From Tessaracoccus caeni (lineage in GTDB: Bacteria > Actinomycetota > Actinomycetes > Propionibacteriales > Propionibacteriaceae): a stretch of DNA of 64,000 bases. The notes under the pieces are model-generated. The model had not been told where the DNA came from and did no database searches. It was given only the letters and a program-made list of their open reading frames with translations. Of this stretch, positions 1 through 15,466 are shown piece by piece. A program made the translations under genes and the position numbers. The stretch covers positions 407,414-471,413 of the forward strand of contig NZ_JARGDO010000001.1 of the NCBI RefSeq assembly GCF_029211185.1, read 5' to 3'. Position 1 is the first letter of the stretch, and each line of letters starts with the position of its first letter.

Positions 1-2
1 GG

Positions 3-968: not shown

Positions 969-1055
969 GCAGAGGGTCAAGGCGGAAGACCTCCGACCGC
1001 CCCAGAATCGGACCGGCTGGGTCGATGTCCGCTGTCGTTGGCCCAGTTTCGATGA

Positions 1056-2129: not shown

Positions 2130-3094
2130 AGACCGCTCGCCTTTCCTCGTCGCACGAGCGCGATCAGCACTGGCGCGCCGATCACCGCGGCAAGAACGCC
2201 GACCTCGATCTCACCAGGGCGCGCTATCAGACGACCGATCACGTCGGCGGTGAGCACAAGCGTCGGGGCAGCGATGACGGTATACGCGATGATCCACCGT
2301 TGATCCGGGCCGACGAACCACCGCGCCACATGCGGAATCATCAGGCCGACGAAAGCGATTCCGCCGGTGAGCGCCGTCGCGCCACCGGCGAGCAGCGTCA
2401 CGGCGACGATCCCGAGCACACGGGTTCGTGCCACGCTCGCCCCCAACGACGCTGCGAGCTCATCGCCCAGCGCAACAGCATTCAGCGAGCCGGCGACGAG
2501 CACCGCCAGGAGCAATCCGACGCCGAGGAACGGCAGCACCGCAGCGGTGTCCCCCAATGACGTGTTGGACACGGAACCGAGCGCCCAGTTCCGTATCGAC
2601 GTGAAGGTGCTCTCGTCGATCAGCGTCAGAAACGTCGAGTACCCACCCAGCACAGCGCCCAAGGCGACCCCGGCAAGCACCAGTTGGACCGGAGACGCGG
2701 CCGCTCGCCCGGCGGAACCGATGAGATACACGAGAACGGTTGCCATCACGGCGCCGGCGAACGCGAACCAGATGTATCCCTCGATGCTGGACACACCGAA
2801 CAGGCCGACGCCGAGGGTGACGGCGAATCCGGCTCCGGCGTTCACCCCGAGAACGCCGGGGTCGGCAAGCGGGTTGCGAGTGATGGCCTGGATCAACGCA
2901 CCGGCCACACCGAACGCAACCCCGGTGGCGATGCCGACCACGGTCCGCGGCACACGGAGCGACCAGAAGATCACCGACGCCTCGGAACTGTCCTGGTGCC
3001 ATAGCCCTAGCCACACCTCACCCAACGTCAGCTGCCTCGTGCCGAGCGCGAGGCTCAAGAGAACGGCCAGCAGCAATGCGCTGGTCAAGACCAC
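2126..3094 (-). CDS. Iron-complex ABC transporter permease, FecCD family (first subunit)
   Basis: A 322-residue multi-spanning membrane protein of the FecCD/BtuC family. It shows SLRVPRTVVGIATGVAFGVA, then ALIQAITRNPLADPGVLGVN, and the coupling loop GGIAFVGLMIPHVAR. The GTG start at 3094 is the only start codon I found in frame after the upstream lipoprotein gene, 41 bp away. The order lipoprotein, permease, permease on one strand is the usual layout of a ferric-siderophore import operon. The operon is probably repressed by iron through the DtxR-like box at 4267-4285 upstream of the lipoprotein gene. Confidence 0.93.
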   Translation of the reverse strand: MVLTSALLLAVLLSLALGTRQLTLGEVWLGLWHQDSSEASVIFWSLRVPRTVVGIATGVAFGVAGALIQAITRNPLADPGVLGVNAGAGFAVTLGVGLFGVSSIEGYIWFAFAGAVMATVLVYLIGSAGRAAASPVQLVLAGVALGAVLGGYSTFLTLIDESTFTSIRNWALGSVSNTSLGDTAAVLPFLGVGLLLAVLVAGSLNAVALGDELAASLGASVARTRVLGIVAVTLLAGGATALTGGIAFVGLMIPHVARWFVGPDQRWIIAYTVIAAPTLVLTADVIGRLIARPGEIEVGVLAAVIGAPVLIALVRRGKASGL

Positions 3095-3135
3095 GAGCCC
3101 GACGACCCGGCGCGAGGCCGACGATGCCCCGGGGT

Positions 3136-4194
3136 CTATGAGAACTGCTCCTCGATGAGATCGAGCAGCGCGAGGCTGCGCAGGTAGTCGGTCCTGAACG
3201 CCCAGTACGGCAGCTCAAAGGCATTTCCGCTCTTGACGGCTGGAAGGGTGCTGTAGATCGGATCCCCGGTGAGCGCGTCGGGCGCGGGCTTGACGATGTC
3301 CCCGCCCTGCCAGCCCAGGTAGATCAACGTGGGCGCGGTGAACGCCTCGATGACCTGCTCTCGGGATAGCTCGATCGTGTCCCCTGAACCGAAGGCGGCA
3401 TCGGCGTACTCCGGATGATCGGCGACGACCGTGTCCGGTTCGAAGCCGAGCTGCGCGAGCAGTTGCGGGAGATCGGAGTCCTCGGGCAACAGGAAGGGGT
3501 CGCCGTTCTCCAGCAACATGAGGTAGGCGACGGGGTTCTCCGGAAGCGTGATCGCGGCGGAGACCTCCGTCACACGTGCGTTGAACGTGTTGACGAGTTC
3601 AGCCTCGCGATCCGCGACATCGAAGACGTCCGCGAAGAAGGAAAGGTGATCTTGCCAAGTCAGAGCATCGGTGCCGACCAGAACTGTCGGCGCAACCTTG
3701 CTCAACTCGTCATAGGCGTCTCGCGCGTTGCTCCCGATCAGCCCCTGCCCGCCCCCGACGATGAGGTCGGGGTCCAGCGCGAGGATCTCCTCGACGTTCA
3801 TGCCGTCTTCCGAGAAGCCCTCGATCACCTGAGTTGCGTCCCGCTCCGCATGCTCGGCCCAGCTGGGGTACCCGCTGTCGGAGATGTTCGCCTGACCGTA
3901 GCTCGCGTACACGGGGATATCCAGCGCGTAGAGGTAGCCCGTGAGGTCCGCGTTCACCACGACGATCTTCTCGGGATTCGTCGGAATGGTGACGTCCCCC
4001 TGAGCGGTCGATACCACGCGCGTCGCACCATCGGATGACGGAGCAGCCGTCGGGTCAGACGACGCCGTCGCCGACGTCGCGTCGGATGACGGGGCAGGTG
4101 TGGTGGCGGGCGAACAAGCGGTCAGGATGAGCCCAGCGATCACGGTCGCAGCGGCAAGGAATGCACTCCGCCACCTCGGGAGCGTCATGGTCAT
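3136..4194 (-). CDS. Iron-siderophore substrate-binding lipoprotein (FecB/FepB type)
   Basis: A 352-residue class III periplasmic-binding-type lipoprotein. It has a signal peptide with lipobox LTAC (Cys about residue 27), a Ser/Thr/Ala linker, then two lobes with typical elements: NPEKIVVVNADLTGYLYALD, EEILALDPDLIVGGG and YWAFRTDYLRSLALLDLIEE. It would be anchored outside the membrane and deliver ferric-siderophore to the permeases encoded directly downstream. A second in-frame ATG two codons in (4188) is an alternative start. It is transcribed divergently from the AraC gene at 4324; the shared 129-bp intergenic region carries a DtxR-like iron box. Confidence 0.93.
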   Translation of the reverse strand: MTMTLPRWRSAFLAAATVIAGLILTACSPATTPAPSSDATSATASSDPTAAPSSDGATRVVSTAQGDVTIPTNPEKIVVVNADLTGYLYALDIPVYASYGQANISDSGYPSWAEHAERDATQVIEGFSEDGMNVEEILALDPDLIVGGGQGLIGSNARDAYDELSKVAPTVLVGTDALTWQDHLSFFADVFDVADREAELVNTFNARVTEVSAAITLPENPVAYLMLLENGDPFLLPEDSDLPQLLAQLGFEPDTVVADHPEYADAAFGSGDTIELSREQVIEAFTAPTLIYLGWQGGDIVKPAPDALTGDPIYSTLPAVKSGNAFELPYWAFRTDYLRSLALLDLIEEQFS

Positions 4195-4266
4195 GGTGGT
4201 GTTCTTCTTTCTCTGGGTTGCTCCGTGGGCGACGAGGCCGCGCGGTGTCGGCGAAATGGCCAGTGA

Positions 4267-4285
4267 TAAGGTTAGGCAACCCTCA
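4267..4285. promoter_or_regulatory. DtxR/IdeR-like iron box
   Basis: The 19-mer taaggttaggcaaccctca matches the DtxR consensus TTAGGTTAGGCTAACCTAA at 15 of 19 positions by my count. It sits between a siderophore-binding lipoprotein gene (left) and an AraC gene (right). Its left edge is exactly 57 bp from the AraC start codon, as in the second copy at 7137. Iron-dependent repression is inferred from the motif and the neighbours. Confidence 0.75.
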
Positions 4286-4311
4286 TCTGGTTTGGTGTGC
4301 GGGAAACGTCA

Positions 4312-4317
4312 TATACT
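4312..4317 (+). promoter_or_regulatory. -10 box for AraC gene; likely leaderless transcript
   Basis: The hexamer TATACT ends 6 nt before the ATG at 4324, so transcription would start at or next to the first codon. No Shine-Dalgarno is visible. The paralogous gene at 7194 has TATAGT at the same distance, and the surrounding bases (aaacg.catata.ttagg) are conserved between the two. A good -35 hexamer is not obvious. Confidence 0.55.
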
Positions 4318-4323
4318 TAGGCA

Positions 4324-5922
4324 ATGTCGCGCAGCTATCCCGGCCCCGTCGGCACCAGCGAGCCGCCGACGATTCCGGGAACACGATCAGATTCGACTCC
4401 TCCACCCCGCCGCCCGGCGCTGTATTGGGTGCGCACCGGCGACGCGCGCGTGCGCATCGACAATGCTGCGACCTTCCTCCTCACTGCCGGCGAAGGCCTC
4501 TGGATCCCAGAGGACACCTGGGATCGCCACGAGGTCGTCACGGAACCGGGCACCGTCGCTTTTCCGCTATGGTTCCACTCCGGTTTGGGCGTGGAGTCGC
4601 TATCGGGACCCACGCGATTCGAGGTTCCAGACGGCTGGCAGGACTGGCTGATCCAGCTCTTCAACCTGCAATCCACCCCATTCAGCGGTCGCGGGTACTC
4701 CCCTGACGCGATCACCGACCTGCTTCGCCACCCCGGCCGACGCTCGCCCATACCGCCCCAAGACGGGAACACCGAACCTTCGCCCACCACGCTCGGGCCA
4801 CCCCCGATACCGAAGGCCCGAGGAGCCAGGGCGGTGGCCGAGGAACTGATCCGTGACCCCGCCCTCGACCTCACCGTCGAGCAGTGGGCGACCCGGGCGC
4901 TCACCAGCCCGAGCAGCTTGCTCCGCGCCTTCCTCGCCGACACCGGTCTCACGTTCCAGCAGTGGCGACTCTGCTGCCGACTGACGACAGCCGTCGAGCA
5001 CCTGGCCGCCGGGTACAGCGTCGATCGGGTGGCGGCACTGGTGGGCTTCGGCAGCCGAAACGGCTTCACGCGCGCGTTCAAACAGCAGTACGGGATGACA
5101 CCCCACGAGCTCACCAAGAAGATCTCTGCCGGCGCCAACGCGGAGCAGCGCACCGCAGCGGCACGCCGGACAGACGACCTGATGCGCATGGTGCGGAGGA
5201 ATCACGGCCCCGCCGCGCCGGAGTTGCTGCCGGCGATGCGCACGCCCCCGCATACAAACGGTTTCCACGTGCTCAGCTGGATGTACCGAGGCAGCGGCTT
5301 TCTGGACATCGGCGATCGCCACTACGAGCGGAGGCGGGGCGTCGCAACCTGGATCCCCGCAGGGCTGGAGCACGTCACAGGTCTCCGCGCGAACTCGGTA
5401 TCGCTGCCCCTCGGAGACGCCAGCCCTGCCGACCTCTCGCTGACCGAACCGCTGCAGGTGCCGTTCTCCCCCGCATGGGACGACTACCTGATGTTCTGCT
5501 CCATCAGCGCCCGCACACACCTCCACCCCGACGGCTACGACCCACGGCACATCCTCGGCCTGTTCAGTGAGCAGCTCGCCGCGCAGCGTGCCTTGTCGGT
5601 CCCGATGCCCGCCGATCCACGCGCACGTGCGGTGGCGATGGAGTATCTCCGCCGCATCGGCTCATCGGGCGGATCACCCGCTCACGACCTCAGCACGGAG
5701 CTCCAGCGGACCTTCCGCGAAGAAACCGGCATGAACTTCTCCCGCTGGCGTTACGCTGCACGCATGCGCATCGCCCGCGACCTCCTGGCCGGAGGAGCCA
5801 AACCGAGCGCCGTCGCCCGCCGGGTGGGGTACGCCCACCTCCCCACCTTCAGCACCGCCTTCTCCCGCTTCCACGGAATGTCACCCCGCGAGTACCAAGA
5901 ACGCGAGACCGACGGCACCTGA
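4324..5922 (+). CDS. AraC-family regulator with two cupin/HTH modules
   Basis: A 532-residue regulator built from two AraC-like halves. Module 1 has a cupin-like N-terminus (about 35-95) and an HTH domain (about 169-265, with VAALVGFGSRNGFTRAFKQQ and GMTPHEL). Module 2 has a cupin-like segment (about 309-355, HTNGFHVLSWMYRGSGFLDI, WIPAGLEHVTGL) and a second HTH (about 427-528, ending FSRFHGMSPREYQE). Typical AraC regulators are about 300 residues, so this resembles a fused dimer. The flanking segments of the two halves also repeat, for example VPDGWQDWLIQLF and FSPAWDDYLMFC. It lies divergent from a siderophore-binding lipoprotein gene and downstream of an iron box; a role as an iron-complex-sensing activator is inferred. 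Confidence 0.9.
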   Translation: MSRSYPGPVGTSEPPTIPGTRSDSTPPPRRPALYWVRTGDARVRIDNAATFLLTAGEGLWIPEDTWDRHEVVTEPGTVAFPLWFHSGLGVESLSGPTRFEVPDGWQDWLIQLFNLQSTPFSGRGYSPDAITDLLRHPGRRSPIPPQDGNTEPSPTTLGPPPIPKARGARAVAEELIRDPALDLTVEQWATRALTSPSSLLRAFLADTGLTFQQWRLCCRLTTAVEHLAAGYSVDRVAALVGFGSRNGFTRAFKQQYGMTPHELTKKISAGANAEQRTAAARRTDDLMRMVRRNHGPAAPELLPAMRTPPHTNGFHVLSWMYRGSGFLDIGDRHYERRRGVATWIPAGLEHVTGLRANSVSLPLGDASPADLSLTEPLQVPFSPAWDDYLMFCSISARTHLHPDGYDPRHILGLFSEQLAAQRALSVPMPADPRARAVAMEYLRRIGSSGGSPAHDLSTELQRTFREETGMNFSRWRYAARMRIARDLLAGGAKPSAVARRVGYAHLPTFSTAFSRFHGMSPREYQERETDGT

Positions 5923-5965
5923 CGCCCCAGACCGCGGAGGACCCGTCGGCGCTCGTCTACGACGG

Positions 5966-5994
5966 GGTCCGGGCGCCGTCGTGGCGCCCGGACC
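5966..5994. terminator. Bidirectional terminator hairpin
   Basis: A perfect 12-bp inverted repeat (GGTCCGGGCGCC and its complement) with a 5-nt loop lies between two convergent stop codons, those of the AraC gene and of the lipoprotein gene at 6018. There is no strong T-run on either side. Confidence 0.7.
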
Positions 5995-6017
5995 GTTCTC
6001 CCGTTGAGGCGGGACCG

Positions 6018-7034
6018 TCATTCCTTAGCGGACAGAGCCGCCAATGCGGCCTCGACCGAGTCCAGGTACTTCGTAGCCAGTCCATAGGAGGAATTGCTGG
6101 CGCAGAAAACTCCCAGAGCGTGGCCGTCTTCGACCGCCGGAAGCGCCTGCCAGGTGTTGGTTTCCACCACCGGCTTGAAGTCGACCTGCACCTGACCCTC
6201 CTTATCGACGGGGTACAGGATCGCGTCGTACTGCGACAACTCCGCAAGCTGTTCAAAAGACCGGGCCTCGAAGGCCGCATCATCGGCGAGTTCTGGGAGT
6301 GTGATGCCGAGTTCCGACACCGCGAGTTCGGCGCATCCACTGTTATCGACGACGAACATCCCGGGCTCGGTCGCCGCCCAGCGATTGAGATTGACGAACG
6401 CCGTGCTGGCGATGAGCTCCGAATAAGTGCCCTTAATCGCCGCAACCTTCTCCTCGAACTGGTTCTTCTGCTCACCAAAGACAACCTCTTTGTTGCTGGC
6501 CTTTGCCATTCCAGCCGCGGCGGTGGTGCCGTCGGTCGCGAGGCTGAAGAACACCGTCGGCGCGATCGCCTGCAGCTCTGTGGCTATCGCGTCGTAGTCC
6601 TCCTGCTGAAGGAACATCAGGATGAGATCCGGTTCGAGACTCGCGATCTTCTCAAGGTCGACCTCGCCGGCACTCGTCCCGACGATCGTCGCGCCTCCAT
6701 AGGCCGCCTGCTGTTCCGCGCTCAACTTGTCGAAAAGGAAGCCGCTCAACTCCGTCGCTCCCACAGGCGCTCCGCCCAGGTCGATGTACGGCACCGTCGC
6801 AGAGCCGAGTGTGACGACTCGTTGCGGGTCAGCGGCCACCTCGATCGTTCCGTTGTCCGCATCGACCGTTTTGGCCTGGGCAGCCGTCGCCTCGGCGGTC
6901 GTCGTCTGGCCGACGGTTGGCGCACCGGTCTCCGGCTCACCGGAGCCTGGGTTTCCGTTGCAGGCAGTGAGGGCAAGGGTCGCACTCAGCAGTGTGGCAG
7001 CAAAGGCCGCCCTGCGGCGGCGGAGTGAGGTCAT
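6018..7034 (-). CDS. Iron-complex ABC transporter substrate-binding lipoprotein (orphan)
   Basis: A 338-residue exported binding protein with a twin-arginine-rich start (MTSLRRRRAAF) and lipobox LTAC. The mature part shows binding-protein elements DPQRVVTLGSATVPYIDLGG, LEKIASLEPDLILMF and DAILYPVD. The ATG at 7034 is chosen because AAGGA lies about 11 nt upstream; an in-frame ATG at 7067 would add 11 residues before the basic signal region. No permease or ATPase gene accompanies it, so it probably shares the FecCD pair encoded at 1056-3094 or a system elsewhere. It is divergent from an AraC gene, with a strong iron box between them. Confidence 0.9.
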   Translation of the reverse strand: MTSLRRRRAAFAATLLSATLALTACNGNPGSGEPETGAPTVGQTTTAEATAAQAKTVDADNGTIEVAADPQRVVTLGSATVPYIDLGGAPVGATELSGFLFDKLSAEQQAAYGGATIVGTSAGEVDLEKIASLEPDLILMFLQQEDYDAIATELQAIAPTVFFSLATDGTTAAAGMAKASNKEVVFGEQKNQFEEKVAAIKGTYSELIASTAFVNLNRWAATEPGMFVVDNSGCAELAVSELGITLPELADDAAFEARSFEQLAELSQYDAILYPVDKEGQVQVDFKPVVETNTWQALPAVEDGHALGVFCASNSSYGLATKYLDSVEAALAALSAKE

Positions 7035-7136
7035 GGTTGTGATGTTCCTTACTGAGGTCGTCGGCATACGGACGCAATCCGTTTCCGATCAGATCGAGGG
7101 GGGCGCCCGCGCACGATCGGCAGCAGGTCGCCCTAG

Positions 7137-7155
7137 TAAGGTTAGGGAAACCTAA
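7137..7155. promoter_or_regulatory. DtxR/IdeR-like iron box
   Basis: The 19-mer taaggttagggaaacctaa matches the DtxR consensus at 16 of 19 positions by my count and is nearly palindromic. It lies between the orphan binding-lipoprotein gene and the AraC gene at 7194, again exactly 57 bp before the AraC start codon. Confidence 0.82.
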
Positions 7156-7181
7156 TCTTAAATAGTACGGAGAAAACGCCA

Positions 7182-7187
7182 TATAGT
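7182..7187 (+). promoter_or_regulatory. -10 box for AraC gene; likely leaderless transcript
   Basis: TATAGT ends 6 nt before the ATG at 7194, with the same spacing and local context as the promoter of the paralog at 4324. A weak -35 candidate (ttaaat) lies around 7158-7163. The 6 nt before the start (taggag) include a purine run too close to act as a ribosome-binding site. Confidence 0.5.
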
Positions 7188-7193
7188 TAGGAG

Positions 7194-8783
7194 ATGGTGG
7201 GTTCTCCGGCAGTCGCATTCAACGACGACGGTCCGCCATCGATCCCCGCGGCGCGGCTGGACTGGACGGGGGTCCATCTCCACCCACTGCTGGTCTGGGT
7301 GCATGCTGGCTCTGCGCACGCGGTTGTCGATCACGCGGTGGCCTTCCACCTTTCTGCCGGGCAGGGAGCTCTGCTCACGGTGGGTGGGTATCGGCATCGA
7401 GGCATCGTCACCGAGCCGGGCTCCGTCGCCTTTCCGCTCTGGCTCGAACCCGGCGGCGGGTTGCCGACCGAGCCGACTCGCTTCGAGGTTCCGGACGGCT
7501 GGCGCGACTGGCTGATCCAGTACTTCAATCTGCAGGTCACGCCGTTCAGCGGGCGCGGATACTCTCAGGACACGATCACCGGCCTGTTCCGTCATCCCGG
7601 TGCTCAAGCGGCACCGCCAAGGCACACAAAGGAGGCCCTCTCGCCGCTGACACTCGGCCCGCCGCCGATGCCAAGGACCGGGGCTGCCCGGAGGGTCGCC
7701 GAGGAACTGATCCGTGACCCTGCGCTCGACTTCACCATCCAAGAATGGGCGACGCAGGTGCTCTCCAGCCCGCGCACCCTGCTACGTCAGTTCCTCACCG
7801 ACACAGCGCTCACCTTCATGCAATGGCGGCAGCGGTGCCGATTGCACGCGGCAGTCGAACTCCTGGTGGCGGGCTATGAGATCGCTCAGGTGGCCGCGCG
7901 GGTGGGCTTCATCAGCCGGGGAGGCTTCGACGACGCCTTCAAGCGTCAGTTCGGGTCGACTCCCTATCGGTTCAGTCGGGAGCTCTCCGCTCGTCTGGCC
8001 GATGATCGCGACAATGGCCGCGCAGCTGCGGCACGTCAAGCGGACAATCTGGCGCGCCTGATACGAGGAGGTGATGTTTCCGCTGCGGCACCGCACATGC
8101 TGCCCGCGGCTCGGACGCCTTCGCACACCAACGACACACATGTGCTCAGCTGGATGTATCGCGGTAGCGGATACCTGGATATCAGGGGTCGGCGCTACGA
8201 GCGGCGACGAGGCGTCGCAACCTGGATCCCTGCCGGCGTCGAGCACGTCACAGGGCTACACCAAGACTCCATCTCCCTCCCACTCGGAGAAGCCAGCACC
8301 GCCGACCTACAACTGACCAGACCGTTACAGGCACGGTTCTCCCCCGCATGGGACGACTACCTGATGTTCTGCTCGATCAGCGCCCGCTCCTTGCTGCGCC
8401 CCGACGGCTACGACCCCCGACACGTCCTCGACCTGTTCGCCGACCAGGTCGCCACACAACGAGCGCTATCGGTGCCGATGCCCACCAATCCACATGCGCG
8501 CGAACTCGCGATGACTTACCTGCGACGGATCGGCACGTCGAGACTCGACGTGCCGGCCGACATCCAGCGCATCTTTGTCGCCGAGACCGGAATGACCTTC
8601 GCCCGCTGGTGCTACGCGGCTCGCATGCGCATCGCCCGCGACTTGCTCGGCGGCGGCGCGAAGCCCAGCGCCGTGGCCCGCCGCGTCGGCTACACCCACC
8701 TCCCCACCTTCAGCACCGCCTTCTCCCGCTTCCACGGCCTCTCACCGCGCGAGTACCAGGAACAGCACCTCACGAAGGACTGA
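7194..8783 (+). CDS. AraC-family regulator with two cupin/HTH modules
   Basis: A 529-residue paralog of the regulator at 4324, colinear over its whole length. HTH 1 is at about 165-264 (VAARVGFISRGGFDDAFKRQ), the second cupin-like segment at about 310-355 (HTNDTHVLSWMYRGSGYLDI) and HTH 2 at about 428-524 (VARRVGYTHLPTFSTAFSRF, ending SPREYQE). Its N-terminal 100 residues are less conserved with the paralog than the rest, which suggests different ligands. It is divergent from the orphan siderophore-binding lipoprotein gene and is probably its regulator. Downstream lies a gene-poor stretch with mobile-element debris. Confidence 0.9.
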   Translation: MVGSPAVAFNDDGPPSIPAARLDWTGVHLHPLLVWVHAGSAHAVVDHAVAFHLSAGQGALLTVGGYRHRGIVTEPGSVAFPLWLEPGGGLPTEPTRFEVPDGWRDWLIQYFNLQVTPFSGRGYSQDTITGLFRHPGAQAAPPRHTKEALSPLTLGPPPMPRTGAARRVAEELIRDPALDFTIQEWATQVLSSPRTLLRQFLTDTALTFMQWRQRCRLHAAVELLVAGYEIAQVAARVGFISRGGFDDAFKRQFGSTPYRFSRELSARLADDRDNGRAAAARQADNLARLIRGGDVSAAAPHMLPAARTPSHTNDTHVLSWMYRGSGYLDIRGRRYERRRGVATWIPAGVEHVTGLHQDSISLPLGEASTADLQLTRPLQARFSPAWDDYLMFCSISARSLLRPDGYDPRHVLDLFADQVATQRALSVPMPTNPHARELAMTYLRRIGTSRLDVPADIQRIFVAETGMTFARWCYAARMRIARDLLGGGAKPSAVARRVGYTHLPTFSTAFSRFHGLSPREYQEQHLTKD

Positions 8784-8887
8784 GACAGATCCAGAGTCCG
8801 GAGCCGAAAGGCGTCGCATCGCGGTGACGTTCGCGGTCGCCAGTTGCACATCCGGCTCCGCTTTCGCGTTGCCAGCGGACCGGCCGC

Positions 8888-8950
8888 CCGCGTTTTTGAA
8901 CTAAGCAGCCGCGTTTTGTTAGTTCCGAGCCCCGCGTTTTGTTACTTCTA
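8888..8950. repeat. Three imperfect short direct repeats
   Basis: Three units beginning CCGCGTTTT start at 8888, 8909 and 8932, each followed by an A/T-rich tail; the last two share CCGCGTTTTGTTA.TTC. They end where the reading frame of the truncated antitoxin fragment begins. Function is unknown; they may be debris of a promoter duplication or a recombination scar. Confidence 0.5.
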
Positions 8951-8952
8951 GG

Positions 8953-9135
8953 CTCCGCAAGATCGAGTCCGGCAACCCCGGTGTCAGCTTCTGGAATGTC
9001 ACCCAGGTTCTGCGCGCCCTCGGGATCCTGGTTCAAGCCGTCGACGCCATCGATCCCCTCGCCAGCGACATCGGCAGGCTGCGCGCGGCCAACCTCGAGA
9101 AGAAGCGCGTTCGACGACCTCGGTCGATGCGCTGA
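8953..9135 (+). pseudogene. Truncated XRE/HipB-like antitoxin, C-terminal fragment
   Basis: An open frame of 60 residues with no start codon. It contains KIESGNPGVSFWNV, TQVLRALGILVQAVD and IDPLASDIGRLRAANLEKKR. This matches the C-terminal part of Cro/CI-type helix-turn-helix proteins of the HipB antitoxin kind: recognition helix, then a DPL...G.LRA tail. The N-terminal half, including the first HTH helices, is missing and is replaced by the short repeats at 8888-8950. No hipA kinase is present in the window. It is most likely a decayed toxin-antitoxin remnant in the accessory region. Confidence 0.6.
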
Positions 9136-9226
9136 CAGACCACGAGGGCGGGCCGTCGAGCGACAGCTCTCGGGCGGCCTGCATGCGCGCAGTTGACAGG
9201 CCATGTTCCGCAATGGATGCTCAACC

Positions 9227-9673
9227 ATGACCGGAATCACCATCGATGGCATCGAGATCGACCGCGACCTCGCCGCAGAACCCGCAGCAGTATTCTCAGC
9301 CTGGACGACGCCTCAGCACTTCGCACGATGGTTCGGTGGAAAAGACGTCGAAGTACCGCTCACCACGCTCGAGTTCGTCGCCGAGCCAGGTCGCACCTGG
9401 GCGGCACAGATGGTTCTGCCGAACGGAGCCACCATCGATTGGGCCGGCGACTTCATCGAGGTCGTCCCCGACAGGCGTCTCGTGTTCACCCTCACCGATC
9501 GCCCTGCCGAGCCCACCCGAGCGAAGATCGTCGTCGAACTGACCGCTATCGCCGATGGAACCCGGCTGCACTTCATGCAGGAAACCCCAGGATTCACGCC
9601 GGAGCAGCAGCAAGGCCTCATCGCGGGCTGGCAGTCGTTCATCGACGAACTCGAACGGATCGCGACGGAGTAG
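9227..9673 (+). CDS. SRPBCC / AHSA1-like domain protein
   Basis: A 148-residue soluble protein of the START/SRPBCC fold, similar to activator of Hsp90 ATPase homolog 1-like proteins. It begins with beta-strand IEIDRDLAAEPAAVFSAWTT, followed by PQHFARWFGG, central DWAGDFIEVVPDRRLVFT and C-terminal helix GLIAGWQSFIDELERI, all in the usual order and at full family length. The ATG at 9227 (MTGITIDG) is preferred; an in-frame ATG at 9203 would add eight residues that do not fit the fold. The ligand is unknown. In other actinobacteria such genes often sit with ArsR regulators, but none is adjacent here. Confidence 0.85.
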   Translation: MTGITIDGIEIDRDLAAEPAAVFSAWTTPQHFARWFGGKDVEVPLTTLEFVAEPGRTWAAQMVLPNGATIDWAGDFIEVVPDRRLVFTLTDRPAEPTRAKIVVELTAIADGTRLHFMQETPGFTPEQQQGLIAGWQSFIDELERIATE

Positions 9674-9780
9674 AGATCGCCGCAGTCCGAGTCCCGGTTA
9701 TGCGGCGAGCGCCCGGGATCCTGGATCAGACCATTGAGCCCCGCATCGATGCCCTCACTAGCGCGGGCTACGATTCTGCG

Positions 9781-10221
9781 ATGGACGATTCCCCCACACC
9801 GATCTGTCACCGGTGCGGCCAGCGCGTGAGCGTCAACGCCGAGTTCTATGACGTCTTCGAGCAGATGCACCAGGTGTGCTTCCATTACTCCTTCGAGCAC
9901 CGTGACGACCCCGACGAAGAGTGCGGCGCAGGCGGGTGCCCCGCGGGCGGCCTCTCCGCAGCCTCTTTCGCCGCCCGCGTCGGCGGAGTCGATCTCTCAC
10001 AGACCGGAAACACCGTGGTTCCTGCGATCCTCGCCCTCCGAGAGCTAGGAATGTCGATCGAGCAGAACGCCGGCGGATTCCTGGCCAGGTCCGGCAGCGC
10101 CACTTTCTACGCGGAAGATCCCGTTGCCGTGCTCGGCCTTGTGAAACTCGCTGAGATCCGTCGCCCGTGGAGCGCCACCGACCAGGAGATGGACGACATC
10201 CTGGCGGAGTTCGACCTGTAG
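9781..10221 (+). CDS. Hypothetical protein with CxxC motif
   Basis: A 146-residue protein I do not recognise. The N-terminus carries CHRCG, a possible zinc knuckle half, and a further Cys-rich stretch EECGAGGCPAGG at about residues 47-58. The C-terminal 70 residues look helical and acidic, ending DQEMDDILAEFDL. The ATG at 9781 is the first Met consistent with this composition; the frame is open further upstream but reads as arginine-rich shadow sequence. There is no signal peptide or membrane segment. It follows the SRPBCC gene by 107 bp on the same strand. Confidence 0.6.
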   Translation: MDDSPTPICHRCGQRVSVNAEFYDVFEQMHQVCFHYSFEHRDDPDEECGAGGCPAGGLSAASFAARVGGVDLSQTGNTVVPAILALRELGMSIEQNAGGFLARSGSATFYAEDPVAVLGLVKLAEIRRPWSATDQEMDDILAEFDL

Positions 10222-10376
10222 ACGAGCGACACCGGCAGGCTGCGCTGAATCCGTTACCCCTGCCTCATCGACGCCCCACTTTCCCCTCGTAGAGCCCGTG
10301 CTCCATATTAGATAATGTTCGAAAGTCGTCCCGTGCCCTGAAAGCCTTGATTTCTCGGGCAAAGGCCGGGATCGAA

Positions 10377-10608
10377 CTGGATCGCGGTCCGGGCACCTAT
10401 ACCCAGATTACTGACCCACGAGGACGTGTGGTCGCCGCGATTGAGAAGGTTCAAAACTCGGTCACCCCGCAGATGGCTGTCGACATGGTCGCCCGCTACG
10501 AGGCTGGCGCTTCGATACGCGAGGTCGCTGCGGCGTTCAATGTGCATCGCGAGAGCGCGGTGTGGAGCTTCGCCCGCCACTGGTTCGAGCTCGTGCGCTG
10601 TCCAAGAG
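10377..10608 (+). pseudogene. Helix-turn-helix remnant, resolvase/invertase-like C-terminus
   Basis: The frame encodes VTPQMAVDMVARYEAGASIR followed by EVAAAFNVHRESAVW. This resembles the Hin-type HTH found at the end of small serine resolvases and in related orphan DNA-binding proteins (pattern YxAGxSxxEVAxxFxVHRxTV). The upstream catalytic domain is absent, and after about 10600 the frame loses resemblance to anything recognisable. With the serine recombinase fragment near 15 kb it supports decayed mobile DNA here. A complete small HTH protein starting at TTG 10347 cannot be excluded. Confidence 0.4.
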
Positions 10609-10802
10609 CCCGGAACTTGAAGAACCTGCCCGATGAAGGGATCGTGCTGAACCGCTCTCATGCTCCGTGGCTGTGCGGCAGAGAAGAGGTGCGCGGGGTG
10701 GAATCGGAGTGCGCGAAGCCTCCATCTACACGGATCTCATCGTGAGTGGCTTGGATGCCGACAACATCAGCCGTCTGCTCGCTGTTCTGAAGGAGCGCGA
10801 GG

Positions 10803-11564
10803 TCATTCTTCATGTGACCGACCACGATGGCGGTTCCGACGTCCCCTCGTTTGTCGCGCACTCTTCGATGTCCATCCGTGCTCGTGCAGGCGTTCGAAGC
10901 CGTCGAGCATCACATCGAGGGTGAACGCGAACTCGAACTCATCGTCGCATCCGTGGCCCACGACGGAATCGTCGTGCTGGGCTACACCCGCCATCAGTAC
11001 GATGTTGGGATAGACCTGTGCCATCTGCTGCATCATCTGTGCCTGCATCTCCGGCGAGATGGTGCTCGCTGCTTCCTGGGACGGGACGCGCGACTCATCG
11101 AAGAGCTCCTGGGTGAAACCCCACATCCGCCCGCCGAGCGCATGCATGACGTGGTGCGTGAGGTCGGCGGAGAACCCGCCGGCAAGGAACATGCCGATCA
11201 TCGACTCCATATATGCGAGCACCGCAGGGGTCTTGTTCGTGCGAGTTTCGATGACCTGCCGCGACCACGCATGCTGCAGGAGCGCGCGCCGCGCGGAAAG
11301 CACGCGATGCCGCACAGTCGCCTTCCAATCCGCACCCTCAAGAGCGGGATTGATCTCACCGATCAGCACTTCCACCATGCCGTCGAGCAGCTCCTCTTTG
11401 TTGGCGACGTGCCTGTAGAGGGCCATCGGCACCACATCGAGTTCCTGAGCGAGGCGGCGCATGCTGAGCGCATCAATGCCGATCTCATCGGCAAGTGTCA
11501 CGGCTGCCTGCAGCACGCGGTCACGGTTCAGGCGCACGCGATGCTGGCTGTCGTCCTTCGCCAT
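10803..11564 (-). CDS. TetR-family transcriptional regulator with TetR_C-type ligand domain
   Basis: A 253-residue repressor. Its N-terminal HTH (about 12-60) reads RDRVLQAAVTLADEIGIDAL, SMRRLAQELDVVPMALYRHV. A C-terminal all-helical ligand-binding domain of the TetR_C class follows, with DGMVEVLIGEIN and GFSADLTHHVMHALGGRMWG. The last 20 residues are basic and low in complexity. It is divergent from the DUF2306/oxidoreductase fusion gene. Two 15-bp palindromes of the same sequence type lie in the shared promoter, so it very likely represses that gene and itself. The inducer is unknown; a quinone-like or electrophilic compound would fit the target enzyme. Confidence 0.9.
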   Translation of the reverse strand: MAKDDSQHRVRLNRDRVLQAAVTLADEIGIDALSMRRLAQELDVVPMALYRHVANKEELLDGMVEVLIGEINPALEGADWKATVRHRVLSARRALLQHAWSRQVIETRTNKTPAVLAYMESMIGMFLAGGFSADLTHHVMHALGGRMWGFTQELFDESRVPSQEAASTISPEMQAQMMQQMAQVYPNIVLMAGVAQHDDSVVGHGCDDEFEFAFTLDVMLDGFERLHEHGWTSKSARQTRGRRNRHRGRSHEE

Positions 11565-11618
11565 CTGGCACCTCCACTCAGAGAGTCTGGCGAACCTTCG
11601 GCTCCACCCGGGCTCGAC

Positions 11619-11648
11619 TTGACAAGTTTACAACGTACACACTAGCCT
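11619..11648 (+). promoter_or_regulatory. Sigma-70-type promoter for the fusion gene
   Basis: TTGACA (11619-11624) and TAGCCT (11643-11648) are separated by 18 bp. The predicted start is near 11655, about 43 nt ahead of the ATG at 11698, which has a purine-rich GGAG at 11686-11689. Operators overlap the spacer and the start region. Confidence 0.65.
11626..11640. promoter_or_regulatory. TetR operator O1
   Basis: GTTTAC AAC GTACAC is a 15-bp inverted repeat with one mismatch in 6-bp arms, lying in the spacer between the -35 and -10 boxes. Its complement reads GTGTACGTTGTAAAC, closely matching O2. Confidence 0.65.
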
Positions 11649-11658
11649 GACACTCAAT

Positions 11659-11673
11659 GTGTACGGTGTACAC
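11659..11673. promoter_or_regulatory. TetR operator O2
   Basis: GTGTAC GGT GTACAC is a perfect 6-bp inverted repeat with a 3-bp spacer, just downstream of the predicted transcription start. It lies 33 bp centre-to-centre from O1, about three helical turns. Confidence 0.75.
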
Positions 11674-11697
11674 GTCGGAGTGAAGGAGCAGGAATCC

Positions 11698-13428
11698 ATG
11701 AACGCCTCCACAGTCCCCCTAGAACTCACGGGAGGCACTCGACCGTCCCGCACCCAGTGGCTCGTGCCGGTGGGTCTGATCCTGGTCAGCCTGATCCCGA
11801 TCATTGCCGGATCATTGCGCCTTGCCGAGTTGACCGGTGGCGCGGTGGTCACGCCGGGCAACGCTCGCTTCTTCGATTCGCCGGTACCCGTAGTCGTTCA
11901 TATCGTCACCGCGACGCTGTTTTGCCTGCTCGGCGCGTTTCAGTTCGTTCCCGCGTTGCGTCGCCAGCGCCGCTGGCATCGAATGGCCGGTCGCGTGATC
12001 GTTCCAGTCGGGCTCCTCTCGGCATTGTCAGGGATGTGGATGGCCGTTTTCTACGACCTGCCCGCGCATGACGGCACTGTCCTGCTGTTCGTGCGCCTCT
12101 TCTTCGGTGGGTCCATGGTTGCCAGTCTCCTGATCGCCTTCGGCGCGATCCGCCGACGCGACCTCGCAACACATGGCGATTGGATGACGCGGGCATACGC
12201 TCTTGGGCTCGGTGCCGGCACGCAGGCGATTCTGCTGATGCCGGTGACAGCGGCGTTCGGGTCAGTGGATCAGCTTGCCCGCGCTGCGACGATGGCCGCG
12301 GCTTGGGTGGTCAACCTGCTCGTGGCGGAGTTCGCGATCCTCCGCCGACGCCGCCGATCGACGGCTGCGGGATCCCGAGAGGGATCTACTCGCGCATATG
12401 TCCAGGCGGGCGTCGAACGAGCAGAAGGTGCAGAGTCGCATTCCGAGACCATGCGAGCCGCGACCTACCATCACTTTGGAGCACCCGAGGTCGTCACGGT
12501 TGCAGAGGTTGCGAGACCCGCACCCCAGGCCGGGGAAGTGCGGGTGCGGGTATTGGCGAGCACAGTCAGCGCCGCTGATCACCGCGCACGGAGCCGCGAC
12601 ATTCCTTCCGGCCTGCGACTTCTTTCAGGCTTCACAATCGGCTTCCGCCGCCCGAGTCGCCCCGTGCTCGGCATGGACTTCGCAGGCGTGGTCGACGCTG
12701 TCGGCGATGACGTCACGAACCTCAGTATCGGCGACGAAGTGATCGCCATGCCTGGCAGCGCATATGGCGGACACGCGGAGTACGCGATCATTCGAGCCGA
12801 CGGCGCGATCACCTTGAAGCCACAGAACTTGGACTTCGACGCGGCGGCATCTCTCATCTTCGGTGGGATCACGGCGCTCGGATTCATGAACCAGGTCAAG
12901 ATCGCTCCGGGCGACACGGTTCTCGTGAACGGCGGATCCGGCGCCGTCGGCCTTGCCGCCATGCAGCTCGCGAAGCAGCTGAATGCCGAGGTGACAGCGG
13001 TGACGAGCGAGAAGAATCGAGAGTTGGTCACGGAGTTCGGTGCCGATCATGTGATCGACTACGAAAGCGAAGACTTCACGACTCAGGGCCTCAGCTACGA
13101 CGCTGTCATCGACTGCGTAGGAAACGTGCCGTTCGCACGTCTCGCGGGCGTTGCGAAACCAAGCGGTGCTGTGCTTCACGTCGCCGCAGACTTTGCCGCA
13201 GTCGCACTGTCGGCGTGGCGCACTCGCCGCACCGGAAAGTTCTGCACCGCGATGGTCGGGAAGTATCGCGCAGAGGACCTTGCCCACCTTGTGGCCCACG
13301 CCGAGAGCGGTCAGTTCAAGCCGACGATCGATCGAACGTATGACCTCGCCGACATCGTCGAAGCCCATCGCTACGTCGACCTGGGCCGCAAACGCGGGAG
13401 CGTGGTCCTTCGGATCGCATCGGCGTAG
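11698..13428 (+). CDS. DUF2306 membrane domain fused to zinc-independent MDR oxidoreductase
   Basis: A 576-residue two-domain protein. Residues 1-230 form a polytopic membrane region typical of DUF2306 (VGLILVSLIPIIAGSLRL, RRQRRWHRMAGRVIVPVG, RLFFGGSMVASLLIAFGAI). From about residue 252 (MRAATYHHFGAPEVV) a complete medium-chain dehydrogenase/quinone-oxidoreductase domain follows. It has GMDFAGVVDAVGDDV, the Rossmann loop NGGSGAVGLAAMQLAK and C-terminal VDLGRKRGSVVLRI, and lacks the catalytic zinc Cys set. The two domains are usually separate genes. The cofactor would be NADPH by family; the substrate is unknown. ATG 11698 is chosen because an upstream GTG at 11659 lies inside the operator. 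Confidence 0.88.
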   Translation: MNASTVPLELTGGTRPSRTQWLVPVGLILVSLIPIIAGSLRLAELTGGAVVTPGNARFFDSPVPVVVHIVTATLFCLLGAFQFVPALRRQRRWHRMAGRVIVPVGLLSALSGMWMAVFYDLPAHDGTVLLFVRLFFGGSMVASLLIAFGAIRRRDLATHGDWMTRAYALGLGAGTQAILLMPVTAAFGSVDQLARAATMAAAWVVNLLVAEFAILRRRRRSTAAGSREGSTRAYVQAGVERAEGAESHSETMRAATYHHFGAPEVVTVAEVARPAPQAGEVRVRVLASTVSAADHRARSRDIPSGLRLLSGFTIGFRRPSRPVLGMDFAGVVDAVGDDVTNLSIGDEVIAMPGSAYGGHAEYAIIRADGAITLKPQNLDFDAAASLIFGGITALGFMNQVKIAPGDTVLVNGGSGAVGLAAMQLAKQLNAEVTAVTSEKNRELVTEFGADHVIDYESEDFTTQGLSYDAVIDCVGNVPFARLAGVAKPSGAVLHVAADFAAVALSAWRTRRTGKFCTAMVGKYRAEDLAHLVAHAESGQFKPTIDRTYDLADIVEAHRYVDLGRKRGSVVLRIASA

Positions 13429-13440
13429 TCCGAGGCACCG

Positions 13441-13555
13441 GAACACGTAGGGGCCATCGCTCCACGAGTTCCAGAAATTCGACTGTACGAAACGCCTGTA
13501 GCCACTGAGACCATCACGGTGATAGCGGCGGAGATTTGCACACCTGTCGGTCGCG
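13441..13555. repeat. 115-bp direct repeat, copy 1 (flanks CPBP gene)
   Basis: This copy aligns without gaps to 14610-14724, with 16 mismatches in 115 positions by my count (about 86% identity). The longest shared block, from gtagccactgag to catcacggtga, is almost perfect. In both copies one + strand frame stays open and reads EH.GAIA.RVP.IRL then VATETITV.AA. Here that frame continues to a stop at 13641 (ending NKKHD). It may be the tail of a lost coding gene. Confidence 0.75.
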
Positions 13556-13662
13556 AAGAGTTCGTCTTCATCGGCGAGGTAGTGCTGTTCATCTGGCTAC
13601 TCGAATGGAGCGGCCGAACAGGAAACAAGAAGCACGACTGAGCGCGGAAAGAGAGCAATTTC

Positions 13663-14529
13663 ATGCCAAACTCCAGGCACACGCCCCGTACCCATACCAT
13701 CAGCGAGTTCTCCCAGACAGCTCCTGCAGCACTAGTGCCTCAGGATCCTGGGGCTCGCGCAGCAGCGCAGGGCGGGCTTCAGCAACTCTCACTGAGAAAC
13801 ACTCTGCTCGTCTGGCTCGGTGTCGCAGGGCCGATGGCGATCCTCGTCTGGGTCGTCTGGCCGATGCTCAGCACGGTGACCTCGATGAACTCGGGCATGC
13901 TGTTCTGGCTGCTCATGACCTGTGGCATGATCTGGCAATTCGTGTTCTCACTGATCCTGCTGCACCAAGAGCTAGGCACCCTGCGATGGTCCGTCATCGC
14001 CCCAAGGATCTGGGCGCAACAGCCTCGCGATCCTCGAACCGGCAACCCACGACCCCGCCTGTGGTGGATGCTCATCCCAATCGCCGCGGCCTTCGCTGTT
14101 CTCACCCTCACCAGTGATCTGCTGACGTCACTCATGGAGGCCGTCGGACTCACCGAACTCACAGGCGCGAGCATCAGCGGACTCGCCGATCCTGCGTTCA
14201 CCGGTCAATGGTGGATCTTCGCCGTTGCAGTGATCAGCTTCGTCTTTAACTACGCACTGGGCGAGGAGCTGTTCTTCCGCGGGGTGCTGCTACCACGCAT
14301 GCAGGGCGTGTTCGGCCGGTGGGACTGGCTCGCAAACGCTGTCTTGTTCACGATCTACCACACGCAGAAGCTCTGGACTTTGCCGATCGTGCTCCTCACA
14401 GCACTGCCCTTCAGTTGGGCAGCTCGGCGGTATCGCACCATCTGGTTCGCGGTGATCTTGCACGCAATCGAAGGGGTCGTCGTGCTCGTGTTGGTGTTCG
14501 CCGTGGTGAGTGGCCTCGCTTTCTCGTGA
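13663..14529 (+). CDS. CPBP-family intramembrane metalloprotease (Abi/CAAX-like)
   Basis: A 288-residue membrane protein with about seven hydrophobic segments. It carries the CPBP (Rce1-like) motif EELFFRG (E201, E202, R206), a second motif LFTIYH (His about 233) and a third LHAIEG near the C-terminus, where Asn is more usual. The family includes CAAX prenyl proteases and bacteriocin self-immunity proteins; which role applies here cannot be told from sequence. The N-terminal 50 residues are cytoplasmic and low in complexity. The gene lies between two copies of a 115-bp direct repeat in the accessory region, so it may have moved as a cassette. Confidence 0.88.
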   Translation: MPNSRHTPRTHTISEFSQTAPAALVPQDPGARAAAQGGLQQLSLRNTLLVWLGVAGPMAILVWVVWPMLSTVTSMNSGMLFWLLMTCGMIWQFVFSLILLHQELGTLRWSVIAPRIWAQQPRDPRTGNPRPRLWWMLIPIAAAFAVLTLTSDLLTSLMEAVGLTELTGASISGLADPAFTGQWWIFAVAVISFVFNYALGEELFFRGVLLPRMQGVFGRWDWLANAVLFTIYHTQKLWTLPIVLLTALPFSWAARRYRTIWFAVILHAIEGVVVLVLVFAVVSGLAFS

Positions 14530-14609
14530 CGGCGAGCAAGAGCAGCGAACGCGAGGAGCAAGGACGAAGCCTCATGAACCCAGCAATCAAGAGGCGGTCC
14601 GAAGCACAG

Positions 14610-14724
14610 GAACATTTAGGGGCCATCGCGCTTCGAGTGCCAATAATTCGACTGGACAAAACGCTTGTAGCCACTGAGACCATCACGGTGACAGCGGCGG
14701 ACATGAGCACACCTGCCGGTCGCG
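14610..14724. repeat. 115-bp direct repeat, copy 2 (flanks CPBP gene)
   Basis: Gap-free partner of 13441-13555, 1169 bp downstream in the same orientation. The open frame EHLGAIALRVPIIRL ... VATETITVTAADMSTPAGR runs to a stop at 14744. I do not recognise the encoded peptide. Confidence 0.75.
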
Positions 14725-14838
14725 GGCAGATGCGGAGCCAGTAGGAGCTCATATCGTGACCACGTTGCTGTCGGAGGAGGCCCTGTTCGCTGGTGTCGGT
14801 GTCCCGCTCAGGGTGCTGGCGCAGGCGACAGAGGTGCC

Positions 14839-15432
14839 GTCAAGACCGGTCAGATCAACCCGGCGACTCGAGATGCGCTGCGCGGCATGCTCCATCATGC
14901 ACTGGATCGCCTCACGAAAGCCGCGTCGACCGAGGCCGCAGATCTCACGCTTCGGCGCACCGAGAACCTGGCCGAGCAAGACCGTCTCCTCGAGTCGCAT
15001 CTGAAAGACGCGCTGAGCCTCGAGCAGTTCAAGAAGTACCAGGATCGGCTCCGCGCCGACCTCGACGAGCGGCTCGCGGAACATAACAACGACTACACCG
15101 AGGCCCGCAACCACATCGACGACTGCCTCGACCTCGCCACCGACATCGGACGTATCTACGCGGGCTGCAACGACCAGAACCGCCGCCTGGCGAACCAGGC
15201 GTTCTTCACTCGCATCCGCATCGGCGAGTACAAGCAACTTGAGGCCGAACTCGCGAAGCCCTTCACGGTGCTGCTGGACCCGAGCGTCCAGCAGGAAGCC
15301 CTCGCGCGCGACGAGCACGGCGACGGCACAGGGGGCGAGAACGAAACCGCGACGCTGTCTCGTGTGTCGCAGTTTCGAACATCGCGCATTGAGTGCCCCC
15401 AGCGGGGCTCGAACCCGCGACCCATGGATTAA
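14839..15432 (+). pseudogene. Serine recombinase (large resolvase), C-terminal fragment
   Basis: The frame matches the coiled-coil and C-terminal end of large serine recombinases: LTLRRTENLAEQDRLLESHL, LSLEQFKKYQDRLRADLDER, DDCLDLATDIGRIYAGCND, NRRLANQAFFTRIRIGEYKQ, PFTVLLDPSVQQEAL. The catalytic domain and the start of the recombinase domain are missing; only faint frame continuity extends left of 14839. The stop (15430-15432) lies inside the tRNA-Lys gene, so the last dozen residues are tRNA sequence read on the opposite strand. The best interpretation is the remnant of an integrated element that ended at the tRNA. Confidence 0.75.
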
Positions 15433-15466
15433 AAGTCCACTGCTCTGCCAACTGAGCTATAGGGGC
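15394..15466 (-). tRNA. tRNA-Lys (anticodon TTT)
   Basis: A 73-nt cloverleaf on the minus strand. Acceptor GCCCCTA pairs with TGGGGGC, the D-arm is GCTCAGTTGGCAGAGC, the anticodon loop is CTTTTAA and the T-arm is GCGGGTTCGAGCCCCGC. CCA is not encoded. Its 3' end faces the mobile-element remnant at 14839-15432. Confidence 0.97.

Follow-up and report, generated by a model that had tools for sequence, protein, structure and literature searches.

Results

Organization of the locus

The window analyzed here is a stretch of 64,000 nucleotides from Tessaracoccus caeni. It carries a gene in which a membrane domain of the DUF2306 family is joined in one frame to a reductase of the MDR superfamily, and a TetR-family gene is transcribed away from it on the other strand. 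The features of the locus are as follows.

10803 to 11564, minus strand: TetR-family repressor gene, 253 aa, divergent from the fusion (TetR_N plus TetR_C_1)
11619 to 11624, plus strand: –35 box TTGACA (by eye)
11626 to 11640, plus strand: putative operator O1, GTTTACAACGTACAC, 11 of 12 arm positions, between the –35 and –10 boxes
11643 to 11648, plus strand: –10 box TAGCCT, 18-bp spacer (by eye)
11659 to 11673, plus strand: putative operator O2, GTGTACGGTGTACAC, at about +1, 33 bp from O1
11683 to 11688, plus strand: ribosome binding site AAGGAG (by eye)
11698 to 13428, plus strand: DUF2306::MDR fusion gene, 576 aa plus stop
11698 to 12342, plus strand: DUF2306 part, residues 1 to 215 (Pfam, hydrophobic segments)
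12343 to 12450, plus strand: linker, residues 216 to 251 (36 residues)
12451 to 13425, plus strand: MDR reductase part, residues 252 to 576 (Pfam; MDR start ATG 12451)

The single 576-residue frame reported in the preliminary description was confirmed as one continuous ORF running from ATG 11698 to the stop codon at 13426 to 13428 on the plus strand. The longest listed ORF is opened by GTG 11659, which lies within O2; judged by eye, ATG 11698, 9 nt after AAGGAG, is the sensible start for the fusion. The same description had read the product as a polytopic DUF2306 region followed by a complete MDR domain, and this also held, with six hydrophobic segments and Pfam matches above cut-off in both parts. 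DUF2306 (PF10067) covers residues 66 to 214 (126.8 bits, cut-off 31.6; profile positions 2 to 147 of 147), ADH_N (PF08240) covers residues 278 to 373 (44.2 bits, cut-off 23.5), and ADH_zinc_N_2 (PF13602) covers residues 447 to 571 (92.3 bits, cut-off 27). PF00107 is above its cut-off in the MDR part as well, and the Pfam matches assign this part to the MDR superfamily.

The DUF2306 part is predicted to be a polytopic membrane protein from its hydrophobic segments (residues 22 to 40, 63 to 81, 100 to 118, 128 to 146, 169 to 187, and 197 to 215) and loop charges. Basic residues number six in loop 2-3, four in loop 4-5, and eight in the linker, and two, none, and one in loops 1-2, 3-4, and 5-6, respectively; this distribution obeys the positive-inside rule, so that the C terminus and the MDR domain should be cytoplasmic, alongside NAD(P)H. 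In an alignment of 28 rows, some of them near-copies and with the distant second copy L093 omitted beforehand, 16 DUF2306 positions are invariant, including H68, H94, and H159 as well as Q82, W93, R99, W114, R133, W162, and M163, which would seem to be more than a mere anchor needs. No solved structure matched DUF2306 by sequence at E ≤ 1. AlphaFold2 run from three sequences gave models with mean pLDDT values of 60.4 (N-part) and 41.7 (full length), too weak for a fold claim, and a Foldseek search with this weak N-part model returned no match at E ≤ 0.001.

In the zinc-dependent alcohol dehydrogenase branch, cysteine ligands hold the catalytic and structural zinc. The MDR part has cysteines at positions 473 and 516 only; because there are just two, the usual zinc ligands should be absent, and by its cysteine ligands the MDR part falls outside this branch. 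Against the PIG3 NAD(P)H quinone oxidoreductase model (TIGR02824, NCBIfam) it scored 128.6 bits, below the 296.8 cut-off. It matches by sequence the solved MDR chains 3tqh, 5a3j, and 4ida (E values from 8.8e-37 to 9.6e-24), of which 3tqh and 5a3j are named quinone oxidoreductase or homolog, whereas 4ida, an enone reductase, was deposited as a ripening-induced protein. Unlike the fusion, these chains of 321 to 332 aa leave no room for a membrane part of DUF2306 size.

The TetR gene product matches TetR_N (36.4 bits, cut-off 24) and TetR_C_1 (46.3 bits, cut-off 21) in Pfam; its score against the tetracycline repressor model (NCBIfam NF010319), 82.1 bits, is below the 265 cut-off. Its solved relatives include ActR, TetR, and SimReg2/SimR, which sense antibiotics according to the accessible part of PMC4486848.

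Twin putative operators in the fusion promoter

The TTGACA/TAGCCT promoter, divergent from the TetR gene, was confirmed by eye. It had been described as carrying two 15-bp palindromes of the same sequence; there are indeed two sites, and their arms are common, but their whole sequences differ. O2 is a perfect 15-bp palindrome (GTGTAC-N3-GTACAC), whereas in O1 one left-arm position is mismatched and the centre is unlike that of O2. The half-site core of O1 and O2 may resemble that of the SimR operator. With up to 1 mismatch, GTNTACNNNGTACAC matched only at the O1 and O2 places in the 64 kb, giving 4 strand matches against 0.15 expected, and 4 or more were reached in 0 of 100 shuffles. The exact pattern GTNTACNNNGTANAC was found at 3 places in the 4.16-Mb own genome, 2 of which are the window promoter, and the reversed control at none; judged by this exact pattern, the window promoter is the sole twin-site promoter in its genome. 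No RNA element reached the gathering score in 10500 to 14800.

Targets of related TetR genes

Relatives of the TetR protein (P0002) were searched for in 187 and 189 genomes, one per species, of two families other than the window's; the sample is not neutral, because these families were chosen after DUF2306 or MDR relatives had turned up in them. At E ≤ 1e-38, 24 and 24 genomes matched, with 54 matches in total, and the best 20 loci per search, 40 of the 54 matches, were taken. The divergent targets of these 40, called in some loci as the first gene by a GC3 rule and a reading of the start codon, were DUF4386 (15 loci), DUF2306 alone (11, including L122), MDR alone (4), F420H2_quin_red first (3, one then followed by an overlapping MDR gene), DUF2306 then MDR (2), and DUF2867 (1); one further target could not be assigned to a family, and none was found at three loci. 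The window (fused) and the MDR loci L118, L119, and L120, obtained from the search with the fusion protein (P0001), complete a set of 44 loci, and seven more distant TetR-MDR loci (own genome, 1; genus, 5; order, 1) extend it to a 51-row table.

DUF2306 alone and DUF4386 are the commonest targets of this TetR group. DUF4386 (PF14329) leads with 15 of the 44 loci (L179 to L181, L183, L185, L186, L188, L190 to L195, L197, and L198). An efflux pump is the first divergent target at none of the 40 (out of 44) loci with a target assigned to a family. Targets cluster on the TetR tree without each forming a single block (17 changes, against 30 in shuffles). At L122 (4998 to 5691), the TetR gene, which diverges from a DUF2306 gene, is itself broken across two frames, and both operators are intact. 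The less similar TetR relatives at L196, L203, and L204 adjoin F420H2-dependent quinone reductase genes and have no twin sites. Searches of open-licence PMC found no literature on DUF4386, on a TetR repressor with an F420H2-dependent quinone reductase, or on a TetR gene divergent from a DUF2306 membrane protein with NADPH.

Twin sites across TetR relatives

A sequence close to the start of the TetR gene counted as a site when 10 or more of its 12 arm positions matched, with operator thresholds and distance windows chosen after the first sites had been seen. Two sites occur in 30 of the 51 rows, with start-to-start distances of 32 to 37 bp in all 30 and of 34 bp in 15 of them. Where the TetR E value is ≤ 3e-59, two sites are present in 29 of 32 rows (28 of 31 without the window); the three exceptions are L196, which has no site, and L169 and L170, each with a single site and no gene recognized as a divergent target. 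Sorted by target, the rows with two sites are 11/11 for DUF2306, 2/2 for DUF2306 then MDR, 1/1 for the fusion, 14/15 for DUF4386, and 2/14 for MDR (12 of the 14 MDR-alone rows being without), and 0/3 for F420H2_quin_red, 0/1 for DUF2867, 0/1 for the unclassified target, and 0/3 where no target was found. In a tiling of the 44 loci in 240-nt pieces, real promoters counted, a site occurred in 46 of 1413 tiles and two in 24.

The –35/O1/–10/O2 order is repeated at L118 (MDR alone) and L122 (DUF2306 alone), where the –35 box (TTGACA and TTGACG, respectively) is similarly placed relative to O1. TetR-linked MDR genes at L118 and L187 share the TetR clade and the two-site promoter of the window, and the window's MDR part is 54% and 61% identical to theirs, but they are without a DUF2306 part. 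The 15 TetR-linked DUF4386 loci (e.g., L185 and L192) belong to the same wider TetR group and, as noted, nearly all have twin sites, although their target is a membrane-like family with 5 to 10 hydrophobic peaks each and no MDR. At least three distant TetR-MDR pairs of the genus (L006, L007, and L011) have paired palindromes of another sequence (partly by eye). In place of two palindromes, the congener TetR-MDR promoters at L008 (1354 to 1407) and L009 (1393 to 1442) contain several GTAC cores, many of them spaced at 7 bp.

TetR relatives up to 71% identical retain the twin sites. Since the sites track the TetR, not the target, among the closest relatives, which is the strongest argument available from this comparison, the window TetR is the likely binder of O1 and O2; the earlier proposal that it binds them is thus supported to this extent, that the sites are kept beside the closest TetR relatives whatever the target. 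As far as such comparisons go, the fusion is probably switched by its own TetR at two DNA sites.

Rarity of the fusion and its split counterparts

The fusion protein was searched for in overlapping draws of genomes from the genus (39), family (198), order (391), class (394), and phylum (396); except in the genus, E limits of 1e-58 to 1e-66 were applied and the best 3 to 6 candidates per genome were kept. Among those draws, a match over residues 1 to 576 was found in the own genome only, a rarity that holds within these draws, because strict E limits and the best 3 to 6 candidates could hide fusions. None of 2262 matching plasmid records covers 80% of the fusion query, and a peptide-pattern genome search, which reaches close relatives only, returned two DUF2306 relatives and no fusion. 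Three other genomes of the genus yielded DUF2306 relatives at E ≤ 1e-15, and no TetR of the window's kind was found in the stretches examined around them.

A search for the same domain pair elsewhere, as the preliminary description had advised, found DUF2306 and MDR paired at L166, L172, and L077 but fused only in the window. In all three, the final 4 bp of the DUF2306 gene are also the first 4 bp of the MDR gene (GTGA, ATGA, and GTGA, respectively). L166 and L172 belong to the window's TetR clade, have twin sites, and carry the two parts in the window's order, but as two overlapping genes rather than one chain; no published name for such TetR-linked pairs was found in open-licence PMC. L077, from the window's own family, adjoins not a TetR gene but a large frame that matches the HTH part only of the response-regulator query (E value, 8.2e-7).

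Among the relatives compared, the TetR most similar to the window's is that of L166 (71% identity), where DUF2306 and MDR are 61% and 56% identical to the window's parts; the best identities to the single parts are at L187 for MDR (61%) and L171 for DUF2306 (64%). In quick trees, all 13 TetR-linked DUF2306 rows, together with L077 and the long-branched L087, join the window DUF2306 (99*); the window MDR clusters with L187 (90), close to L118 and the paired MDRs. The DUF2306 tree drew on 21 of the 31 remaining DUF2306 loci not in the TetR clade, and the MDR tree was built without the distant genus MDRs. The window MDR may be nearest to a stand-alone MDR rather than a paired one, and, because the trees are without bootstrap and several forks are open, a joint ancestor of the fused parts is likely, not proven. 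By eye, the linker of the window starts with VQAGVER, to be compared with AQAGVAR in the DUF2306 tail of L166, and has about 10 further residues without counterpart in the L166 and L172 pairs. From residue 220, the two other frames stop at 12576 to 12578 and 12740 to 12742, 125 and 289 nt beyond the MDR start; a single false indel therefore explains the fusion poorly, because these frames run far past the MDR start and leave no neat 4-bp overlap.

DUF2306 in other settings

Outside the TetR clade, 32 DUF2306 loci were compared: 14 have a histidine kinase gene paired with a response regulator gene next to them (e.g., L052, L053, L101, L102, and L121), 8 lie near a large frame matching the response-regulator HTH part only, and 10 have neither by five queries; an MDR gene is near DUF2306 at two of the 32 (L077 and L125). 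DUF2306 often adjoins a regulator, which fits an inducible function. According to the accessible parts of a 2026 study, the epoxidation of pramanicin in vivo depends on PraC, a fungal DUF2306 protein of 393 aa; the mechanism is left open there, with a redox partner as one option that the authors name (PMC12895699). PraC belongs to the same membrane family as the window's DUF2306 part and has been connected with redox chemistry that acts on a lipophilic molecule, but it is fungal, is likened to the window's part by family membership alone, and comes with no mention of an MDR domain in those parts of the study (PMC12895699). Because a DUF2306 protein is linked to epoxidation, DUF2306 may exceed an anchor role. 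In the accessible parts of PMC8262933 and PMC9617413, DUF2306 appears merely as table entries.

Genomic surroundings

In the three congeners G005, G006, and G027, the sequence to the right of the tRNA-Lys gene (15393 to 15466) is shared with the window, and blastn found no shared sequence to its left over 10 to 11 kb in each. Because sharing stops at tRNA-Lys, the region looks variable and was possibly acquired; by this comparison (positions 1 to 15392 against G005, G006, and G027; L212 to L214), the tRNA gene resembles a hot spot. That a mobile element brought the gene in remains a hint, as no second copy of the tRNA end was found within the window; G006 has a second, partial tRNA copy of 45 nt about 7.3 kb off. 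The frame at 14887 to 15466, which runs into the tRNA-Lys(ttt) gene, has no Pfam match and a weak PHROGs match to an unknown family (0.0045); it may be a recombinase end. A 128-nt direct repeat (13428 to 13555 and 14597 to 14724, 86% identical), whose first copy begins at the final base of the fusion's stop codon, brackets a CPBP/Rce1-like membrane protease gene (13663 to 14529). Elsewhere in the window, three similar long AraC-type regulators (27 to 968, 4324 to 5922, and 7194 to 8783) alternate with apparent iron-siderophore uptake genes (by eye); the one at 7194 to 8783, the only one of the three scanned, has HTH_18 twice and AraC_binding.

Discussion

We propose, at roughly even confidence, that the fusion is a membrane-tethered NAD(P)H reductase, induced by its substrate or by stress, that acts on lipophilic electrophiles. 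When no inducer is present, TetR dimers on O1, within the promoter, and O2, at about +1, would block RNA polymerase, and a ligand, probably lipophilic, would free them from the operators. The product would then insert six helices with both ends cytoplasmic, holding a zinc-free MDR reductase against the cytoplasmic side of the membrane, where the DUF2306 part may present or first modify a quinone-, enone-, or epoxide-like compound dissolved in the membrane for reduction by the MDR domain. The gene would have come from the joining of a DUF2306 gene and an MDR gene; in some relatives, overlapping pairs of the two stand behind this type of TetR promoter. In this scheme the domains, the layout of the promoter, the conservation of the twin sites, the split pairs of the relatives, and the open frame are observed; we infer TetR binding, topology, the absence of zinc, the cofactor, and the course of the fusion, and we guess at the inducer, the substrate, and the DUF2306 chemistry.

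The tethered reductase is favoured on account of the predicted cytoplasmic position of the MDR domain, the invariant DUF2306 residues, and the role of PraC in epoxidation. Quinone or electrophile detoxification, as suggested in the preliminary description, is plausible: three less similar TetR relatives adjoin F420H2-dependent quinone reductase genes, and the MDR part resembles quinone oxidoreductase chains. The prevalence of DUF2306 alone and DUF4386 as targets fits poorly with a reductase-centred function. Also speaking against the tethered reductase are the PIG3 score of the MDR part, the lack of twin sites at the three F420H2 quinone-reductase loci and in 12 of the 14 MDR-alone rows, and the presence of a nearby MDR gene at just 2 of the 32 DUF2306 loci beyond the TetR clade.

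In another account, a small insertion joined the gene ends, the domains keep their old separate jobs, and the tethering carries no particular significance. Either DUF2306 or MDR by itself often suffices as a target, and one fused case was found against a split pair in three other genomes; since a like regulator and promoter precede each part and both together, a common job is suggested instead, and we consider an incidental fusion rather unlikely. Joining by a false indel in assembly or sequencing is exceedingly improbable: the relatives do have two genes with 4-bp overlaps, and the own genome is a draft of 82 contigs, but a single indel yields no such overlap when the other frames meet their stops only 125 and 289 nt beyond ATG 12451, and the linker holds the approximately 10 residues seen by eye beyond the L166 and L172 pairs. 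The division of labor within the chain could also be another, with DUF2306 itself the membrane redox enzyme and MDR its NAD(P)H-using partner, one chain carrying one lipophilic substrate through two steps. The need for PraC in pramanicin epoxidation, with a redox partner named as an option in the accessible parts of that study (PMC12895699), points this way. So do the 16 invariant positions in 28 rows and the fusion and 4-bp overlaps that tie both parts together. To our knowledge, however, MDR enzymes have no flavin and no iron-sulphur centre and so should not simply pass electrons to an oxygenase, and an adjacent MDR gene is lacking at most of the DUF2306 loci examined, which leaves such a redox pair distinctly unlikely. 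It is improbable that the locus is a resistance switch, in which the TetR senses an antibiotic or drug-like natural product and the fusion modifies the same compound. The solved relatives ActR, TetR, and SimReg2/SimR do sense antibiotics (accessible part of PMC4486848), but the window TetR scores 82.1 bits against the 265 cut-off for the tetracycline repressor, and no efflux pump is the first target at the 40 of 44 loci with a family-assigned target.

A broader reading would make DUF2306 a membrane redox family with an NAD(P)H-dependent MDR partner and the twin-operator TetR clade a dedicated sensor of membrane-dissolved redox or electrophile stress, with DUF2306, MDR, and DUF4386 as interchangeable effectors; we regard this as unlikely. 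One TetR clade with a single promoter design is found ahead of DUF2306, of a reductase of known kind, or of DUF4386, the first two being fused here. Little or nothing is known about what the membrane-like families DUF2306 and DUF4386 do, and the locus gives them a natural link to a likely detoxifying reductase. The fusion also bears on the question posed in the accessible parts of the PraC paper, namely, by what mechanism DUF2306 works and whether with a redox partner or none (PMC12895699). The ligand that releases the window TetR would be a lead to the substrate of DUF2306, MDR, and DUF4386 alike.
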